Below are positions 8,054-17,472 of a DNA stretch of 32,048 bases, piece after piece. Below the pieces are notes generated by a model, which made no database searches, was not told the DNA's origin, and saw nothing but the letters and a program-made list of their open reading frames with translations. Position numbers and translations under genes: made by a program. Origin of the DNA: Acidiphilium rubrum (lineage in GTDB: Bacteria; Pseudomonadota; Alphaproteobacteria; Acetobacterales; Acetobacteraceae); NCBI RefSeq assembly GCF_900156265.1, contig NZ_FTNE01000029.1, positions 1 through 32,048 on the forward strand, in the 5' to 3' direction. Position 1 is the stretch's first letter. Each line of letters begins with the position of its first letter.

Positions 8054-8506
8054 ATGCCGCGGATCATCGTCGGGCCCGCCGATTTCGATCCCGGCACCGC
8101 GCTGGCCACGCTCGAGGCCGATGCCGGCGCCGTCGCCAGCTTTATCGGCATCGTGCGCGGCATCGCCGATAACCGGCCGCTCACGGCCCTCACGCTGGAA
8201 CACTACCCCGGCATGACCGAACAGGCCCTGGCCACCATCGCGAATACCGCAATGATCCGCTGGCGCCTGCTCGACTGCCTGATCATCCACCGCACCGGCC
8301 GGCTCGAACCCGGTGCGCGCATCGTGCTCGCCGCCGCCGCCAGCGCCCATCGCGGCGATGCGATCGAGGCGATGACCTTCCTGATCGACTGGCTGAAAAC
8401 CGACGCCCCGTTCTGGAAACACGAAGAGTTCCGCGACGGCACGGCACGCTGGGTCGCGCCGCGCGAGACCGACCAGAGCGCGCGGGATCGCTGGATCGAA
8501 CAGTAA
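8054..8506 (+). CDS. moaE: Molybdopterin synthase catalytic subunit MoaE
   Basis: It transfers two sulfurs from MoaD to precursor Z to make molybdopterin. The 150 residues carry family hallmarks: FIGIVRG near residue 34, LEHYPGM near 55, the IIHRTGRLEPG strand, the SAHRGDAIEA segment, and the WLKTDAPFWKHE motif with the active-site lysines at about residues 116 and 123. It is 2 bp downstream of moaD and ends the rightward operon. Confidence 0.96.
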   Translation: MPRIIVGPADFDPGTALATLEADAGAVASFIGIVRGIADNRPLTALTLEHYPGMTEQALATIANTAMIRWRLLDCLIIHRTGRLEPGARIVLAAAASAHRGDAIEAMTFLIDWLKTDAPFWKHEEFRDGTARWVAPRETDQSARDRWIEQ

Positions 8507-8762: not shown

Positions 8763-8791
8763 TTGACGAGCACGTCTTTCGGTTGTATTGA
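8763..8791 (+). promoter_or_regulatory. Promoter of the CtrA-like regulator gene
   Basis: TTGACG (8763-8768) and TATTGA (8786-8791) are 17 bp apart, a good sigma-70 match. Transcription would begin near 8798, giving a leader of about 20 nt with a GGGGG ribosome-binding site at 8807-8811. A single TTAACC half-site, the word bound by CtrA, overlaps the start region at 8801-8806. A full TTAA-N7-TTAA site is not visible. Confidence 0.55.
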
Positions 8792-8816
8792 TTGATCATA
8801 TTAACCGGGGGTTGTG

Positions 8817-9584
8817 ATGAAAATACTCATTTTTGGGCATATACTCGATAATAAAGACATCATGACGATGTTCTTCAAATCGAAACTCGTCGTCGTCGAT
8901 GAAACCGCGGAGTCCGAGGAGGCACTCGATCTCGCCCGGTTCTACGATTACGATGCCGTTCTGCTGCGCCTCGCGGACACACGGTCCGCCGAAATCGAAT
9001 TGATCCGCCGCCTGCGGATCGGCGGCCTGCGCTGCCCGATCGTCGCGGTGGCGCACAGCCTCGGCGAATCAAGCCGCCTGCGGGTGCTCGAAGCCGGCGT
9101 CGACGATCTGATCGTCAACGCGACCTCACAGGAGGAAATCTTTCTCCGCGTGCAGAATCAGGTTCGCCGCAGCCGCGGCTTCCAAAGCCCATCACTCGTG
9201 ATCGGCAACGTCCAGATCAACATGAACGCGAAAAAGATTTTCGTGGGCGACATCGAGGTCAGCCTCACCAAAAAAGAATACCAGATCGTGGAAATCCTCG
9301 CCCTGCGCAAAGGCTGCGTTCTCAGCAAGGAAGCGATCCTCGATCACCTCTACGGCGGGCTCGACGAGCCCAACCCCAAGATCATCGACGTGTTCATCTG
9401 CAAGATCCGCAAAAAACTGCTGGCGCTCGGCGCCGACGACCTGATCGAAACCAACTGGGGTCGCGGTTATCTGGTGGTCGAAAAACGCAGCCCAGACTAC
9501 GCGCCACAGCCCAAACCGGCCGAACCGGTCGAGCAAAACGACGCGCGGCTCCGTGCCGGCTTGTTCCTCAGGGTTGGAACCTGA
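8817..9584 (+). CDS. CtrA-like response regulator with degenerate receiver
   Basis: The 255-residue protein has the two-domain layout of OmpR-family regulators. Residues about 128-222 match the CtrA winged-helix DNA-binding domain very closely (TKKEYQIVEILALRKG, HLYGGLDEP, KIIDVFICKIRKK, WGRGY). The receiver domain aligns without gaps to Caulobacter CtrA over its first 51 residues, but the phospho-acceptor Asp51 is Arg (YDYDAVLLR). The acidic pair at 8-9 is His-Ile, and the usual T-K-P loop reads V-N-A. Phosphorylation by the CckA/ChpT relay should therefore be impossible. A Pro-rich tail follows residue 225. I take the ATG at 8817; a GTG lies one codon earlier. It is convergent with hpnH. 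Confidence 0.9.
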   Translation: MKILIFGHILDNKDIMTMFFKSKLVVVDETAESEEALDLARFYDYDAVLLRLADTRSAEIELIRRLRIGGLRCPIVAVAHSLGESSRLRVLEAGVDDLIVNATSQEEIFLRVQNQVRRSRGFQSPSLVIGNVQINMNAKKIFVGDIEVSLTKKEYQIVEILALRKGCVLSKEAILDHLYGGLDEPNPKIIDVFICKIRKKLLALGADDLIETNWGRGYLVVEKRSPDYAPQPKPAEPVEQNDARLRAGLFLRVGT

Positions 9585-9620: not shown

Positions 9621-10772
9621 TCAGTCGGCGCTATCGACCACGGCCGGCTTGGCGTGAATCTCAGCCATCTTCTGCTCGACATGGCGTGAAAACACGTAAT
9701 CCGCCGGCCGCTGGTGATCGAGCGGAATGTCTGCCGCCATCGCGCCCTCAGTCTTGATCCCCTGGATCGCCAGCTTGACCATTTTCCACGGCCGCTTGAC
9801 CGAATCGACCACCGCCGTCGCCTCGAAACCGGAATGAACCATGCAATCGGCGCATTTCTCATAATTGCCGACGCCGTATTTATCCCAATCCGTCGACTCC
9901 ATCAGCTCCTTGTAGGTCTTGGCGTAACCTTCACCGAGCAGATAGCAAGGCCGCTGCCAGCCGAACACGTTGCGGGTCGGGTTGCCCCACGGTGTGCATT
10001 TATACGTCTGATTACCCGCCAGGAAATCGAGGAACAACGGTGACTGGTTGAACTTCCACGCCTGACCGCGCGCCTTGCGCTCCTTGCCGTGACGGAAAAT
10101 CGCGCGGAACAATTCCTTGGTGCGCTGCCGATTCAGGAAATGCTCCTGGTCCGGCGCCCGCTCATAGGCATAGCCCGGCGAGGTCATCACGCCATCGACC
10201 CCGATTTCGTTAACCGTATCCAGAAACCCGGCAACCCGGGCCGGATCGGTGCCATCGAACAGCGTGCAATTGATCGAAACCCGGAAGCCCTTGGCCTTCG
10301 CGAGCTTGATCGCGGCAACCGCGCGCTCGTACACGCCTTCCTGGCTCACCGCATTGTCGTGCATCTGCTTGTCGCCATCCAGATGAATGTCCCAGCAGAA
10401 ATTCTTGTGCGGCTTGTACTGGTCGATCTTTTTCTCGAGCAGCAGCGCATTGGTGCACAAATAAATGAACTTGCCGCGCGCGAGAATCTTCTCGACGATC
10501 TCCGGCATCTCCTTGTGCAGCAGCGGCTCGCCACCGGCGATCGCCACCACCGGCGCGCCGCACTCATCCACCGCCTCGAGCGCATCCGCCACCGAAAGCC
10601 GCTGGTTCAGGATGGGTGCCGGATAATCGATCTTGCCGCAGCCCGAGCAGGCCAGATTACAGCGGAACAACGGCTCCAGCATCAGCACCAGCGGATAACG
10701 CTTCCGCCCCGTCAGATGCTGCTTGAGCACGTAAGACCCGACCTTGATCGCCTGATTAAGCGGCACGCCCAT
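9621..10772 (-). CDS. hpnH: HpnH, radical SAM adenosylhopane synthase
   Basis: HpnH adds an adenosyl group from S-adenosylmethionine to diploptene, the first step toward C35 bacteriohopanepolyols. The 383 residues contain the radical SAM cluster motif C38-x3-C42-x2-C45 (CNLACSGC), preceded by YPLVLMLEPLFR and followed by GKIDYP, all strongly conserved in HpnH. A GGEP segment follows near residue 88. The ATG at 10772 was chosen because AGGAG lies 7 bp upstream and homologues begin at this point; an earlier in-frame ATG at 10814 is less likely. It is 52 bp downstream of ispH on the same strand. Confidence 0.95.
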   Translation of the reverse strand: MGVPLNQAIKVGSYVLKQHLTGRKRYPLVLMLEPLFRCNLACSGCGKIDYPAPILNQRLSVADALEAVDECGAPVVAIAGGEPLLHKEMPEIVEKILARGKFIYLCTNALLLEKKIDQYKPHKNFCWDIHLDGDKQMHDNAVSQEGVYERAVAAIKLAKAKGFRVSINCTLFDGTDPARVAGFLDTVNEIGVDGVMTSPGYAYERAPDQEHFLNRQRTKELFRAIFRHGKERKARGQAWKFNQSPLFLDFLAGNQTYKCTPWGNPTRNVFGWQRPCYLLGEGYAKTYKELMESTDWDKYGVGNYEKCADCMVHSGFEATAVVDSVKRPWKMVKLAIQGIKTEGAMAADIPLDHQRPADYVFSRHVEQKMAEIHAKPAVVDSAD

Positions 10773-10824
10773 AAGATAACTCCTGAAACCCTTGAACTGG
10801 ATAGACGACGTCAAAACCGGACGT

Positions 10825-11823
10825 TTAGTCGTCGCTCACTTCACTCGGCAGCTTGAACCGCACGTCTTCCGGCGTGCCGGCCAGCATTTCGACCTCGATC
10901 GGCCCAAACCGCTTCAACCCTTCGAGCACGCCGCGCACCAGTACCTCCGGCGCCGAAGCGCCCGCGGTCACACCCACCACCGAAATGCCCTCGAACCACG
11001 CGGCATCCAGATGATCCGCATCGTCAATCAGATACGACGGCCGGCCAAGCTCCGCACCAATCTCGCGCAACCGGTTCGAGTTCGACGAATTGCGGCTCCC
11101 GACCACCAGGATCAGCTCGACCTGCTCGGCCAGATGCCGCACCGCTTCCTGGCGGTTCTGCGTCGCGTAGCAAATATCGCGCACATCCGGCCCGGTTATG
11201 GTCGGAAACCGCGCCGTCAGCGCCGCGATGATCCCACGCGTGTCATCCACCGACAGCGTGGTCTGCGTGATATAGGACAGCATGGCCGGGTTTTCGACCG
11301 TCAGCGTCGCCACGTCCTCGACCGTCTGCACCAAATACACCTGGCCATCGATCTGCCCGATCGTGCCCTCAACCTCGGCATGGCCGGCATGCCCGATCAG
11401 AATGATCTCGCGCCCCTGACCGGCGTAACGCCGCCCCTCGGAATGGACCTTGGCCACCAGCGGGCAGGTCGCATCGATCACCGGCAGCGAACGATCGCTG
11501 GCCGCCTTCTGTACCTTCCGGGCCACCCCATGCGCCGAAAACACCGTGATCGCGCCGTCCGGCACCTCACTGATCTCATCGACGAACACAGCCCCGCGCG
11601 CGCGCAAATCCTCGACCACATGCCGGTTGTGCACAATTTCGTGACGCACATAAATCGGCGGCCCAAACTTCACCAAGGCGCGCTCGACAATCTCGATCGC
11701 CCGCTCCACCCCGGCACAAAACCCGCGCGGCTGCGCCAGAACCACCTTCATGGTCGGCACCACGCCCGCAGCGGCATCCGACCCCGCCTGGGTCAGTTCA
11801 GTCGAAGTCAGGGACATATCCAT
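10825..11823 (-). CDS. ispH: 4-hydroxy-3-methylbut-2-enyl diphosphate reductase
   Basis: IspH is the last MEP-pathway enzyme, an iron-sulfur protein that turns HMBPP into IPP and DMAPP. The 332 residues show the three cluster cysteines: C36 (PRGFCAGV), C120 (DATCPL) and C218 (DICYAT). HEIVHN, SAHGV and [11 protein letters not shown] are also conserved. An N-terminal extension of about 24 residues precedes the usual [11 protein letters not shown] start, so ATG 11751 is a possible alternative; the 11823 start has an AAAGGG site upstream. Adjacency to hpnH and divergence from dxs place it in an isoprenoid/hopanoid block. Confidence 0.96.
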
Positions 11824-12162: not shown

Positions 12163-12219
12163 ATGATGGCCCATGACACAAGCGATCGTTCGGAGTTGCA
12201 CACCGAGGGCCGCGCCTGA
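12163..12219 (+). CDS. 18-codon upstream minigene overlapping dxs
   Basis: The ATG at 12163 is preceded at good spacing by AAAGGA (12151-12156). It opens an 18-codon frame, [18 protein letters not shown], whose TGA overlaps the dxs ATG in TGATG. By contrast, dxs itself has little ribosome-binding sequence other than the GAGGG inside this minigene. The arrangement suggests translational coupling or a leader peptide. It has no attenuator-like codon run or obvious terminator. The peptide may have no function of its own. Confidence 0.4.
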
Positions 12220-14162
12220 TGCCGCCCCGCACCCCGTTGCTCGACCGCATCAACATCCCCTCCGACCTGCGCAATCTCTCCGGCGAGCAGCTGCGCCAAC
12301 TGGCCGATGAACTGCGTGCCGAAACGATCGACACCGTCTCCATCACCGGCGGCCATCTCGGCGCGTCGCTCGGCGTCGTCGAACTCACCGTCGCCATCCA
12401 TGCGGTGTTCGACACCCCGCGCGACCGGCTGATCTGGGATGTCGGCCACCAGACCTACCCGCATAAAATCCTCACCGGCCGGCGCGACCGCATCCGCACC
12501 CTGCGCCAGCCCGGCGGCCTGTCCGGCTTCACCCGCCGCTCGGAGAGCGAATACGACCCGTTCGGCGCCGCCCATTCCTCCACCTCGATCTCGGCCGGCC
12601 TCGGCATGGCCATCGCGCGCGACCTAAAGGGCGACACCCCCCAGCGCAACGTTATCGCGGTCATCGGCGATGGTGCGATGTCCGCCGGCATGGCCTATGA
12701 GGCGATGAACAACGCCGGCGCGAGCAAATCCCGCCTGATCGTGGTGCTGAACGACAACGATATGTCGATCGCTCCGCCGGTCGGCGCCATGAGCGCCTAT
12801 CTTTCGCGCCTGATCTCCTCGCGTAGCTTCCTGTCGTTGCGCGACTTCGCCGCCCGCATGGCCAAGCGCTTCCCCCGCACCCTGGAACGCACCGCCAAGC
12901 GCGCCGAGGAATACGCCCGCGGCATCCTGACCGGCGGCACCCTGTTCGAGGAACTCGGCTTTTATTATGTCGGCCCGATCGACGGTCACAATCTCGACCA
13001 TCTGCTGCCGGTCCTGCGCAACCTGCGCGATGCCGAGGGCGAGGAACCGATCCTGCTGCACGTCGTCACCCAGAAGGGCAAAGGCTACGCGCCCGCCGAA
13101 GCCTCGGCCGACAAATACCACGGCGTCTCGAAATTCAACGTCGTCACCGGCGAACAGGCCAAGGCGCCACCCGGCCCGCCGTCCTACACCAAAGTTTTCG
13201 CCACCGCCCTGATCGCCGAGGCCGAGGCCAACCCGAACATCGTCACCGTCACCGCCGCCATGCCCGGCGGCACCGGGCTCGATGCGTTCGGCAAGCGCTT
13301 CCCCGCCCGCACCTTCGATGTCGGCATCGCCGAGCAGCACGCCGTCACCTTCGCCGCCGGCATGGCGACCGAGGGCATGGCACCGTTCTGCGCCATCTAT
13401 TCCACCTTCCTGCAACGCGGCTACGACCAGGTGGTCCACGACGTCGCGCTGCAATCCCTGCCGGTCCGCTTCGCGATGGACCGCGCCGGCATGGTCGGCG
13501 CCGATGGCGCAACCCATGCCGGCGTGTACGATCTCGCCTTCCTTGGCTGCCTGCCAGGCTTCATCATCATGGCCCCGTCCGACGAGGTCGAACTGATGGA
13601 TTGCGTCGCCACCGCCGCCATCATCGACGATCGTCCCTCCGCCTTCCGCTACCCGCGCGGCGAGGGCATCGGCCTCGAACTGCCGGCCCGCGGCACGCCC
13701 TGGGAAATCGGCAAAGGCCGCATGATCCGCGAGGGCAGCAGCGTCGCCATCCTCGCCCTCGGCCCGCGCCTGCACGATGCGCTGAAAGCCGCCGATGAAC
13801 TCGCTGCCCGCGGCTTTCCCACCAGCGTGGCCGATGCGCGCTTCATGAAACCGCTCGACACCGCCTTGATCGACCAACTCGCCCGCCACCACGAAGTGCT
13901 GATCACCATCGAGGACGGTGCCGCCGGCGGTTTCGGCGCCGCCGTCGCGCATCACCTCGCCTGGTCCGGCGCGTTCGACCACGGTTTGCGCTTCCGCCCG
14001 ATGACCCTGCCGGACCGCTATATCGATCACAACACCCCGGCCGCCCAGCTGATCGATGCCGGGCTGACCGCCAAGGATATCGTGGCGCACGCGCTCGCCG
14101 CTCTCGGACGCAGCGGTCATGGCGAAAAAACGCATGCCCCGGTCGCAATTCCGGCGCAGTGA
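12219..14162 (+). CDS. dxs: 1-deoxy-D-xylulose-5-phosphate synthase
   Basis: Dxs condenses pyruvate and glyceraldehyde-3-phosphate using thiamine diphosphate, the entry and main flux-control step of the MEP pathway. The 647 residues are full length. Visible landmarks are [14 protein letters not shown] (about 44-57), the [15 protein letters not shown] segment, the thiamine-binding [15 protein letters not shown], the [18 protein letters not shown] segment of the transketolase pyrimidine domain, and [15 protein letters not shown]. Its stop overlaps a GTG in the hpnM frame. It heads dxs-hpnM-hpnI-hpnJ-hpnK, linking isoprenoid supply to hopanoid decoration. Confidence 0.97.
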
Positions 14163-14851: not shown

Positions 14852-16051
14852 ATGGTCGCCGTGCTACCCGCGCTGGCGGATGCGCTCTGCCTCGCAGGCC
14901 TCGCCCAGCAGGCGATCGGCGCCAGCCTGATCAAAATAAGCCCCCCCACACCGTCGAGCGGCAACCAACCCGCCATCACCCTGCTGAAACCGCTCTACGG
15001 CACCGAACCCCTGCTCGAAGCCGCGCTGGAATCATGCTTCCTGCTCGATTATCCGAAATTCCAACTGGTGTTCGGCGCCGCAGACCCCACGGACCCCGCG
15101 CTCGCCATCATCGCCGCCTTGCGCCGACGCTACCCGCAGGTCGATGTCACGGTCATCACCGGCCCCACCCCGCCCGGCCGCAACCGCAAGATCGCCAATC
15201 TGATCGCGATGCTGCCGGCCGCGAAACACGATCTGCTGGTGATCTCGGATGCCGATATCCACGCCAGGCCCGACTACCTCACCGCCATCGCAGCCGCGAC
15301 CAACGCGACGAACACCGGCCTGATCACCTCGTTCTACACCGGCTTGCCGGCGAGCCCCGCGCTGCCCGCCATGCTGGGCGCGATGCAGATCAACCATCAA
15401 TTCCTGCCCGGTGCCGCCATCGCGCGCGCGCTCGGCCGGCGCGATTGCCTGGGTGCCACCATGGCGCTCAGCCGCGCGACCCTCACCGCGATCGGCGGCC
15501 TGCCCGCCCTGCTCGACCATCTGGCCGATGACAACGTGCTCGGCCAGCGCGTCCGCGCCATCGGCCAGCCGATCAACCTCGCCCGCACCATCCCCGCCAC
15601 CAGCGTCACCGAATCGACGTTCAGGGCGCTGATCCGCCACGAGTTGCGCTGGGCGCGCACCATCCGTGCGCTGGTGCCCGGCGCCTATTGGGGGCTGATC
15701 GTCCAATTCCCGCTGTTCTGGGCGCTGGCCGGTCTGGTCCTGGCCGATTTCGCAACCTGGGCCTGGATTGTCGTCGCCCTCGCCGCCGGGCTGCGCTATG
15801 CCCTCGCCCGCCATCTCGAGCGTCGCCTCGGCCTCGCCGGCGGTGGCGCGAAATCCCCAACCCTTGCCAAAACCGCCGCGCCATGGCTTTTCCTCTTGCG
15901 CGACGGTCTTTCGGCGATCATTTTCGTGGCCAGTTTCTGGAGCGATACGGTCGATTGGCGGGGCCAGACGCTGCACGCCGATTCCGGCCGCAGCAACGGC
16001 GCGTTTTCCCCGGCAGCCAGTCCGGTACATGAGTTAGGATCGAAGCGATGA
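14852..16051 (+). CDS. hpnI: HpnI, hopanoid glycosyltransferase (GT2)
   Basis: This GT2 family protein of the ceramide glucosyltransferase type is predicted to attach N-acetylglucosamine to bacteriohopanetetrol. The 399 residues show a short hydrophobic N-terminus, SDADI with the metal-binding D133-x-D135, GADP-like nucleotide-site residues near 75, a GATMALSR acceptor-site segment, and a HELRWARTIR segment matching the (Q/R)xxRW signature. Two hydrophobic helices near 280-310 anchor it to the inner membrane. It overlaps hpnJ by four bases (ATGA). The function comes from work on the Burkholderia cluster, recalled here rather than checked. Confidence 0.92.
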   Translation: MVAVLPALADALCLAGLAQQAIGASLIKISPPTPSSGNQPAITLLKPLYGTEPLLEAALESCFLLDYPKFQLVFGAADPTDPALAIIAALRRRYPQVDVTVITGPTPPGRNRKIANLIAMLPAAKHDLLVISDADIHARPDYLTAIAAATNATNTGLITSFYTGLPASPALPAMLGAMQINHQFLPGAAIARALGRRDCLGATMALSRATLTAIGGLPALLDHLADDNVLGQRVRAIGQPINLARTIPATSVTESTFRALIRHELRWARTIRALVPGAYWGLIVQFPLFWALAGLVLADFATWAWIVVALAAGLRYALARHLERRLGLAGGGAKSPTLAKTAAPWLFLLRDGLSAIIFVASFWSDTVDWRGQTLHADSGRSNGAFSPAASPVHELGSKR

Positions 16052-17472
16052 TGAAGACCCTGTTCCTGCAACCCCCGTCGTTCGACGGGTTCGATGGCGG
16101 CGCCGGCTCGCGCTACCAGGCCAAACGCGAGATCCGCTCGTTCTGGTTCCCCACCTGGCTGGCCCAGCCCGCCGCGCTGATCCCCGGCTCGAAACTGATC
16201 GATGCGCCGCCGGCCAATCTCGGCATGGCCGATGTGCTGCCCCATTCCAACGCGGCCGATCTGGTGATCATCCATACCTCGACCCCGTCGTTCGCCAACG
16301 ACGTCAAGGTCGCCGCCGCCATCAAGGACGCCAACCCGCGCGTCATCATCGGCATGATCGGCGCGAAGGTGGCAGTGCAGGCGCAGGAAAGCCTCGAGCG
16401 TGGCACCCCGGTCGATTTCGTCGCCCGCAACGAGTTCGACTTCACGATCAAGGACATCGCCGAGGGCAAGGCCTTCGCCGAGGTCGATGGTATTTCCTAC
16501 CGCGATGCCACCGGCGCCATCATCCACAACAAGGATCGCGCGATCCTCGAAAACATGGACAGCCTGCCCTTCGTGTCGGATGTCTACAAGCGCGACCTGC
16601 GGATGGAAGATTATTTCATCGGCTATCTGCTGCACCCCTATGTCTCGCTCTACACCGGCCGCGGCTGCAAATCGCGCTGCACCTTCTGCCTCTGGCCGCA
16701 AACCGTCGGCGGCCACCGCTACCGTACCCGCTCGGTCGAACACGTCATCGCCGAGGTCAAACAAATCCAGCGCGACTTCCCGCAGATGAAGGAATTGTTC
16801 TTCGACGACGACACCTTCACCGATAACCTGCCCCGCGCCGAAGCGATCGCGCGCGAGCTTGGCAAGCTCGGCGTCACCTGGTCGTGCAACGCCAAGGCCA
16901 ACGTGCCGCGCGACACGTTGAAAGTCCTGGCCGACAATGGCTTGCGCCTGCTGCTGGTCGGCTATGAATCCGGCAACCAGCAGATCCTGCATAATATCAA
17001 GAAGGGCATGCGGATCGAGGTGGCCCGCCAGTTCACCAAGGATTGCCACGATCTCGGCATCAAGATCCACGGCACCTTCATCCTCGGCCTGCCCGGCGAA
17101 AGCCAGGAGACCATCCGCGAGACCATCCAGTTCGCCAAGGACATCAACCCCCACACCATCCAGGTCTCGCTGGCCGCGCCCTATCCGGGCACATTCCTGT
17201 ACGACCAGGCGGTGGAAAACGGCTGGCTCGACGTCGCCAACGCCGAATTGATCGACGATCACGGCATCCAGATCGCACCGCTGCACTACCCCAACCTCAG
17301 CCACACCGAGATTTTCGAAAGCGTCGAGCTGTTCTACCGGAAGTTCTATTTCCGCGCGCCGAAGATCATGTCGATCCTGAACGAAATGGTCCGCAGCCCG
17401 CAGATGATGAAGCGCCGCCTGCGCGAAGGCGTCGAGTTCTACCAATTCCTGCGCGAGCGCCACGCTGCCTGA
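16048..17472 (+). CDS. hpnJ: HpnJ, radical SAM hopanoid cyclitol ether synthase
   Basis: HpnJ contracts the glucosamine ring of BHT-glucosamine to the cyclitol ether. The 474 residues have an N-terminal B12-binding-like domain (about 70-150) and a radical SAM domain with C207-x3-C211-x2-C214 (CKSRCTFC), followed by LWPQTVGGHRYRTRS. The segments ELFFDDDTF and GYESGN are also typical. It overlaps hpnI at its start. The last codons overlap the beginning of hpnK, so hpnI, hpnJ and hpnK are tightly coupled. Confidence 0.95.
   Translation: MMKTLFLQPPSFDGFDGGAGSRYQAKREIRSFWFPTWLAQPAALIPGSKLIDAPPANLGMADVLPHSNAADLVIIHTSTPSFANDVKVAAAIKDANPRVIIGMIGAKVAVQAQESLERGTPVDFVARNEFDFTIKDIAEGKAFAEVDGISYRDATGAIIHNKDRAILENMDSLPFVSDVYKRDLRMEDYFIGYLLHPYVSLYTGRGCKSRCTFCLWPQTVGGHRYRTRSVEHVIAEVKQIQRDFPQMKELFFDDDTFTDNLPRAEAIARELGKLGVTWSCNAKANVPRDTLKVLADNGLRLLLVGYESGNQQILHNIKKGMRIEVARQFTKDCHDLGIKIHGTFILGLPGESQETIRETIQFAKDINPHTIQVSLAAPYPGTFLYDQAVENGWLDVANAELIDDHGIQIAPLHYPNLSHTEIFESVELFYRKFYFRAPKIMSILNEMVRSPQMMKRRLREGVEFYQFLRERHAA

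Follow-up and report, generated by a model that had tools for sequence, protein, structure and literature searches.

We analysed a 32,048-nucleotide stretch of Acidiphilium rubrum DNA (the window), which carries at 8817..9584 on the forward strand a gene for a CtrA-like protein of 255 amino acids (P0001). CtrA is the textbook cell-cycle regulator switched by a phosphorelay, and ChpT is its phosphodonor. The receiver of P0001 is altered at all five catalytic positions, and no CtrA-type gene other than that for P0001 was found in the genome, based on the open reading frame (ORF), Pfam, NCBIfam and a genome search. We propose, with a probability of about 0.6, that CtrA was freed from phosphorylation at least twice in the Acetobacteraceae, in lineages without ChpT: by a phosphomimetic Glu51, and by a conserved pseudo-receiver (Arg, His or Ser at position 51, with Ala79) in a sole CtrA, the form found in the window. 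If this is true, phosphate control is an input of CtrA that can be replaced, and the action of CtrA in the absence of phosphate can be seen in these lineages.

The sequence facts are firm. The residue alignment comprised the window row, four clade members and 13 other CtrAs, and the window row was ungapped from residue 1 to past residue 225. Relative to the consensus, E7-D8-D9 is changed to G7-H8-I9, D51 to R51, S79 to A79, and K101-P102 to N101-A102, so that the five catalytic positions read His8, Ile9, Arg51, Ala79 and Asn101. In the alignment, His8-Ile9 (8838..8843) replaces the acidic, metal-binding pair, Ala79 (9051..9053) a conserved Ser/Thr, and Asn101 (9117..9119) the conserved Lys; Arg51 (codon CGC, 8967..8969), seen in both the ORF translation and the alignment, replaces the phospho-acceptor Asp51. 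A first-pass annotation of this DNA had described the gap-free alignment through residue 51, the Arg in place of Asp51, the loss of the acidic pair at 8-9 and the loss of the conserved Lys loop. These descriptions are correct, and the receiver loss is wider than it listed, as Ser79 is gone as well.

The quintet of positions 8, 9, 51, 79 and 101 was read over 171 CtrA rows. In the Asp51 class, 102 of 120 rows showed the quintet DDDSK. In the Arg/His/Ser51 class, an Acidiphilium/Acidocella-like clade, none of the 18 rows retained any of the five catalytic residues; these rows represent 15 distinct sequences, and the same genome may in some cases occur under both a named and an unnamed record. 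Residue 51 was Arg in 15 clade rows, His in two and Ser in one, and Ala79 was present in all 18; the relatives also lack Asp51, and Arg51 is not a sequence error. The 29 rows of the Glu51 class all kept Ser/Thr79 and Lys/Arg101, with Asp9 in 27 and Asp8 in three. Glu51 CtrAs were found in Acetobacter musti (L042), Gluconobacter (L019 and L025) and 27 family rows. From these residues, acetic acid bacteria seem to have a naturally phosphomimetic CtrA in the Glu51 form. Among the remaining rows of the 171, residue 51 was Gly in two and Ala in two.

For the estimates of selection, 12 clade pairs were chosen of the 78 possible among 13 ORFs. The ratio of nonsynonymous to synonymous substitution rates (dN/dS) in the receiver was 0.03-0.13 in 11 of the 12 chosen pairs, and dS was saturated in one. 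The same pairs gave 0-0.11 for the DNA-binding domain and 0.13-1.75 for the tail. The predicted structure of P0001 had a mean predicted local distance difference test (pLDDT) score of 79, with residues 225-255 below 50. Its receiver part superposed on the solved CtrA receiver 4qpj_C with a target-length template modelling (TM) score of 0.86 at 2.6 A, 4qpj_C being rank 44 among the fold matches, after full-length OmpR-type regulators. Because dN/dS is 0.03-0.13 and the predicted fold is retained, the pseudo-receiver is not a relic. That the gene is decaying, or is an artefact of assembly, would suit the loss of all catalytic residues and the long stem of the clade, but is very improbable given that dN/dS is well below 1 in the receiver and the DNA-binding domain, that the same loss occurs in independent genomes, and that the promoter blocks are conserved. 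We rejected it on the low receiver dN/dS and the loss in 18 of 18 clade rows.

The copy number of CtrA was examined in the window's own genome (G000), rated 100% complete. No second CtrA-like gene was found when G000 was searched with P0001 and the resulting ten loci were compared with a canonical Asp51 CtrA. The next-best match to P0001 showed 29% identity; the Asp51 CtrA ranked the P0001 gene first (42%, 186 bits), and the runner-up, an OmpR-type regulator (38%, 139 bits), lacked the KIIDVFICK motif. Since P0001 ranks first and no other CtrA was found in G000, the gene is, by these comparisons, not a paralogue of a true CtrA. A CtrA match was present in ten of the 13 genomes of the genus, and only G004 had two, both Arg51. 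The nearest named relatives of P0001 come from metagenome-assembled genomes of an Acidiphilium sp. (88%) and an Acidocella sp. (65%, among relatives at 62-65%).

These results bear on the first-pass interpretation, in which an unphosphorylatable CtrA paralogue competes with true CtrA at TTAA-N7-TTAA sites. The part on a CtrA-like DNA binder that cannot be phosphorylated stands, by sequence, as the Asp51 acceptor is missing; the word paralogue does not, as the protein is the sole CtrA found in G000 and the canonical Asp51 CtrA that was to be looked for did not turn up there. In favor of competition, 16 of the 19 residues in the recognition-helix stretch agree by eye with the consensus of the Asp51 class. 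The claim that the DNA-binding half is almost that of Caulobacter CtrA was overstated: Arg-clade rows had a mean identity to the Asp51-class consensus of 56% over residues 125-225 and 84% over 183-201. Against competition, no other CtrA for the protein to compete with was found in G000, the only two-copy genome of the genus carries Arg51 in both copies, and TTAA-N7-TTAA is not enriched in G000 (4 Mb), with 13 sites versus 28 in the reversed control. Competition is hardly credible, and we consider it refuted for G000, barring a canonical ctrA hidden in a gap of the assembly.

ChpT was searched in 180 family genomes with a profile built from ten family proteins. The scores split into two groups, true ChpT at E <=7.5e-24 and other kinases at E >=1.9e-11, and the line of 1e-20 was set after this gap was seen. 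The test covered six clade genomes (G000, G002, G003, G035, G080 and G151) and left out G001, G004, G005, G007, G009, G010 and G012, which were read for residue 51 only and carry the label chpT- in the CtrA tree by default. ChpT was not found with the family profile in any of the six; the best clade match was 2.4e-6 in G002, within the background. The Pfam ChpT domain PF10090 likewise matched none of the six, G000 included.

The best CtrA was read in 146 of the 161 family genomes with a CtrA match; the other 15 were left out, extra copies were not cross-tabulated, and in a few of the 146 the best match may be a paralogue. An Asp51 CtrA was found in 110 genomes, 91 with ChpT and 19 without. A non-Asp51 CtrA was found in 36 genomes, 35 without ChpT and one (G144, Glu51) with it; among the 27 Glu51 genomes, ChpT was not found in 26. 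The Fisher value for non-Asp51 versus ChpT absence was 8.5e-19, a figure that ignores ancestry.

CckA gave a less clear picture. With a CckA family profile, G035, G080 and G151 had no match at 1e-60, and the best matches in G003, G002 and G000 were 3.2e-76, 2.6e-80 and 1.4e-80, respectively. At 1e-95, none of the 36 non-Asp51 genomes passed versus 63 of the 110 Asp51 genomes; this line was set after the scores were seen, and the profile scores of CckA run into those of other kinases. The best match of G000 to a single CckA-type query was a 1312-amino-acid double-kinase hybrid, with 251 bits for its best part versus 645 for true CckA. That query was rejected as a marker, as 163 of the 180 genomes matched it at 1e-40 and it was not specific, and the family profile was used instead. 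The hybrid (L273, a 1312-amino-acid frame in G000, C36) and L274 (1413 amino acids, G002, C18) show by eye two kinase cores and two receivers, and the CckA profile gives each of them the kind of score seen for ordinary kinases. GcrA was present in 174 of the 180 family genomes, G000 included. SciP was of no use as a marker, passing its cut-off in one of 180 genomes. The odds given here are unchanged without a claim of CckA absence in G000, because they rest on the residues and ChpT.

For the family history we used a tree of the marker Dxs, with 90 hand-chosen genomes of the 156 with a match, including 24 of the 36 non-Asp51 genomes; this tree has no named anchors, and its acetic acid clade is labelled from named rows of the CtrA tree. 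The Arg clade (six rows) stood beside G141 and G065/G189 with a support of 98, apart from the main Glu51 clade. Because the Arg and Glu51 clades lie apart in the Dxs tree, the phosphate input was probably lost separately in the two. G093/G157 and G144 are separate Glu51 cases in the trees. Within the sister group, a genus, G141 (L232) has Asp51, ChpT and the quintet DEDSK, and G065 (L242) and G189 (L251) have Asp51, with ChpT not found by the profile and the quintets TDDSR and NDDSR. These quintets look as if decay had gone part of the way in this genus, beside an Arg clade in which it is complete.

A different history, in which a CtrA paralogue or transferred copy with an already decayed receiver replaced the inherited CtrA, is suggested by the very long stem of the clade and by the CtrA tree, which puts the clade by G070 and not with the Dxs sister group. 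Several family genomes also hold two to six CtrA-like matches. We regard replacement as unlikely, since a CtrA tree constrained to join the clade with G141/G065/G189 was not rejected (p = 0.245 in the approximately unbiased test, p-AU), and G065/G189, with ChpT not found and partly decayed quintets, fit gradual change in place.

Under the reading that we prefer, a single CtrA turned into a regulator independent of phosphorylation, the ancestors of the Acidiphilium/Acidocella-like clade would have lost the phosphate input through ChpT, and the receiver would then have undergone a period of fast change. A new, fixed pseudo-receiver would have been selected that holds the protein binding-competent, probably dimerising. 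In place of phosphate, the supply of protein from an AT-rich promoter with a conserved TTGAC/GGTTGTA core, together with protein removal, would set the output; the usual Ala-Ala C-terminus is largely lost too. The acetic acid bacteria would have come to a similar end by another route, with Glu51 and with Ser/Thr79 and Lys/Arg101 kept. The residues strongly suggest that the protein works without phosphate. On balance, we expect the sole CtrA to bind DNA independently of phosphorylation, probably with constitutive competence, and to be set by its amount or by some partner.

As for removal, ClpXP recognises Caulobacter CtrA in part through the Ala-Ala C-terminus. An AA or VA C-terminus was found in 87 of the 120 Asp51 rows, 3 of the 18 Arg/His/Ser rows and 8 of the 29 Glu51 rows.

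The main rival to this mechanism keeps the CtrA regulated after its synthesis, with the pseudo-receiver sensing another input, such as a protein partner, redox state, pH or a ligand; the first-pass annotation had likewise suggested a response to another signal. Selection on the receiver is about as strong as on the DNA-binding domain, more than a passive spacer needs; partners, redox state or ligands control other pseudo-receivers, according to PMC12632262; and the fold matches include the redox-sensing RitR and the 'atypical orphan' regulator 2hqr. We identified no partner gene, cysteine switch or ligand site, though none of these was the subject of an in-depth search. We hold such an input to be a real but lesser prospect, to be taken as tentative.

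Several results weigh against the loss of phosphate control as we describe it. An ancestry-aware test leaves four to five independent contrasts, with which the ChpT association is not significant, and one Glu51 genome, G144, does have ChpT. We do not claim that CckA is absent from G000, where the best profile match is 1.4e-80, and 33 of 106 ChpT-positive genomes also fail the 1e-95 line, so that this line does not define CckA. The CtrA tree lacks the Dxs sister grouping: the clade joins G070 (99/91) on a stem of 2.79 changes per column, possibly through long-branch attraction, and a tree grouping the clade with the acetic acid group was not rejected either (p-AU 0.141). In the genus, three of 13 genomes (G006, G008 and G011; 94, 78 and 88% complete) gave no CtrA match at 1e-20, two of them being less than 90% complete; CtrA may be dispensable in these genomes or lie in a gap. 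The predicted template modelling score (pTM) of the P0001 model is 0.49, and the domain arrangement is not given by the model. The lack of TTAA-N7-TTAA enrichment in G000 belongs here as well. A sigma-70 scan did not pick the TTGACG/GGTTGTATT pair upstream of the gene, the core being a poor sigma-70 match; because of this, we infer the promoter role of the TTGAC and GGTTGTA blocks from conservation only. Finally, the terms 'constitutive' and 'set by amount' are themselves inferences.

P0001 resembles canonical CtrA in its OmpR/PhoB architecture, ungapped alignment, KIIDVFICK recognition-helix stretch, best NCBIfam model and receiver fold. It differs in lacking all five phosphorylation residues, in the ChpT not found, in the missing Ala-Ala end and in its score of 199.8 versus 350 bits. 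A receiver without phosphorylation residues and with no known partner kinase is shared with ChxR, HP1043, RitR, Rem and GlnR (PMC12632262); unlike these, P0001 is a CtrA, with relatives controlled by a phosphorelay. The absence of Asp51 is shared with the Glu51 CtrA of acetic acid bacteria and with the laboratory CtrA D51E, but the Glu51 form keeps Ser/Thr79 and Lys/Arg101 and looks phosphomimetic, whereas all five residues are gone from the Arg clade. A role for unphosphorylated CtrA is described for Rhodobacter capsulatus (PMC6363796), and in this it is like P0001, a CtrA role needing no phosphate; unlike P0001, that CtrA has Asp51, and its phosphorylated and unphosphorylated states are distinguished in the same source.

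Earlier surveys had noted an incomplete relay in the Rhodospirillales. PMC8116508 reports ctrA, gcrA and ccrM in 72-82% of Rhodospirillales genomes and chpT, cckA and divL in 27-36%, and gives lower selection or divergence as reasons for the low share of relay genes. PMC2877005 describes Rhodospirillales as missing parts of the relay and Granulibacter as having no ctrA ortholog; its main text does not contain the words Acidiphilium, Gluconobacter or Asp51. As presented in these two articles, the choice between chpT absence and difficulty of detection is left open. PMC12632262 defines pseudo-receivers and states that receivers lacking the aspartate most often have Glu in its place; its main text makes no mention of CtrA. 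Among the open-licence papers listed by our searches, no title or abstract opening dealt with CtrA residue 51 in Acetobacteraceae, Acidiphilium, Gluconobacter, acetic acid bacteria or Rhodospirillales. The residue-51 and quintet data indicate that relay loss is real in part of the Rhodospirillales, because CtrA itself, by its residues, no longer accepts phosphate, and this by two routes that differ in their chemistry. The two clades would be natural experiments on which CtrA functions require phosphate, and the Arg clade a case of a pseudo-receiver with well-known receiver relatives.

The domain make-up of P0001 was assigned by Pfam and NCBIfam. The pseudo-receiver spans residues 1-117 (8817..9167), with the predicted alternating strands and helices of a receiver retained under purifying selection; Response_reg scored 27.3 bits, under its 30.2 cut-off. 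The OmpR/PhoB-type winged-helix DNA-binding domain spans residues 125-224 (9189..9488; Pfam and alignment), where Trans_reg_C matched with E 9.3e-18. It includes the recognition-helix stretch found by alignment, residues 183-201, DEPNPKIIDVFICKIRKKL (9363..9419). The C-terminal tail (9492..9581) has low model confidence and weak dN/dS constraint, and ends in GT, AA being usual in Asp51-type CtrA. The best NCBIfam model was CtrA NF045991 (199.8 bits), the next being PhoB (92.6); P0001 fails the CtrA equivalog cut-off of 350 bits of NF045991. From the best curated model and the end-to-end alignment, the gene is classified as CtrA-like.

The frame starts at ATG 8817, preceded by a Shine-Dalgarno-like GGGGG run (8807..8811); GGGGG or GGAGG occurs in most of the clade upstream stretches printed. 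Over the 150 base pairs upstream of this ATG, the guanine-cytosine content is 0.30 versus about 0.6-0.7 in most of the neighbourhood, and the first-pass remark on a distinctly AT-rich promoter region was borne out. The promoter alignment used 7 of the 17 clade upstream stretches. In these seven, TTGAC is invariant within a putative -35-like TTGACG (8763..8768), and GGTTGTA is invariant within GGTTGTATT (8781..8789), a putative core promoter or regulator site; all these elements are on the forward strand. The Acidocella-like ctrA promoters (L101, L102 and L012) carry, just before the TTGAC block, TTAA-N8-TTAA, a TTAAC...GTTAA palindrome that is one base off the canonical CtrA spacing.

CtrA boxes were rejected as regulon evidence on their shortfall in G000. 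Some genes by the G000 boxes, read by eye, resemble those for GAPDH, DnaK, asparagine synthase and PstS, and no flagellar or division theme was noticed. At least one TTAA-N7-TTAA box occurred in 166 of the 180 family genomes, with most counts, by eye, near or below the control. The counts do not support a canonical regulon and would be compatible with CtrA binding at other sites. In G067, all eight sites of the genome lie within 31 kb of contig 24 (1292-32119), with similar inner bases, and this set looks like spaced palindromes. The Asp51 genome G166 had the largest excess among the 180 genomes (68 boxes versus 23 in the reversed control), and its genus mate G110, also Asp51, had 45 versus 37.

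In the window, the ctrA-like ORF is neighboured by MoaE (8054-8506) and, on the reverse strand, by a radical SAM protein with DUF3463 (9621-10814) and LytB/IspH (10825-11823). Further neighbours are DXP synthase at 12219-14162, and glycosyltransferase 21 and a second radical SAM protein at 14852-17472. The genes around the ctrA-like ORF form an isoprenoid block, perhaps a hopanoid one, a link that we assume.
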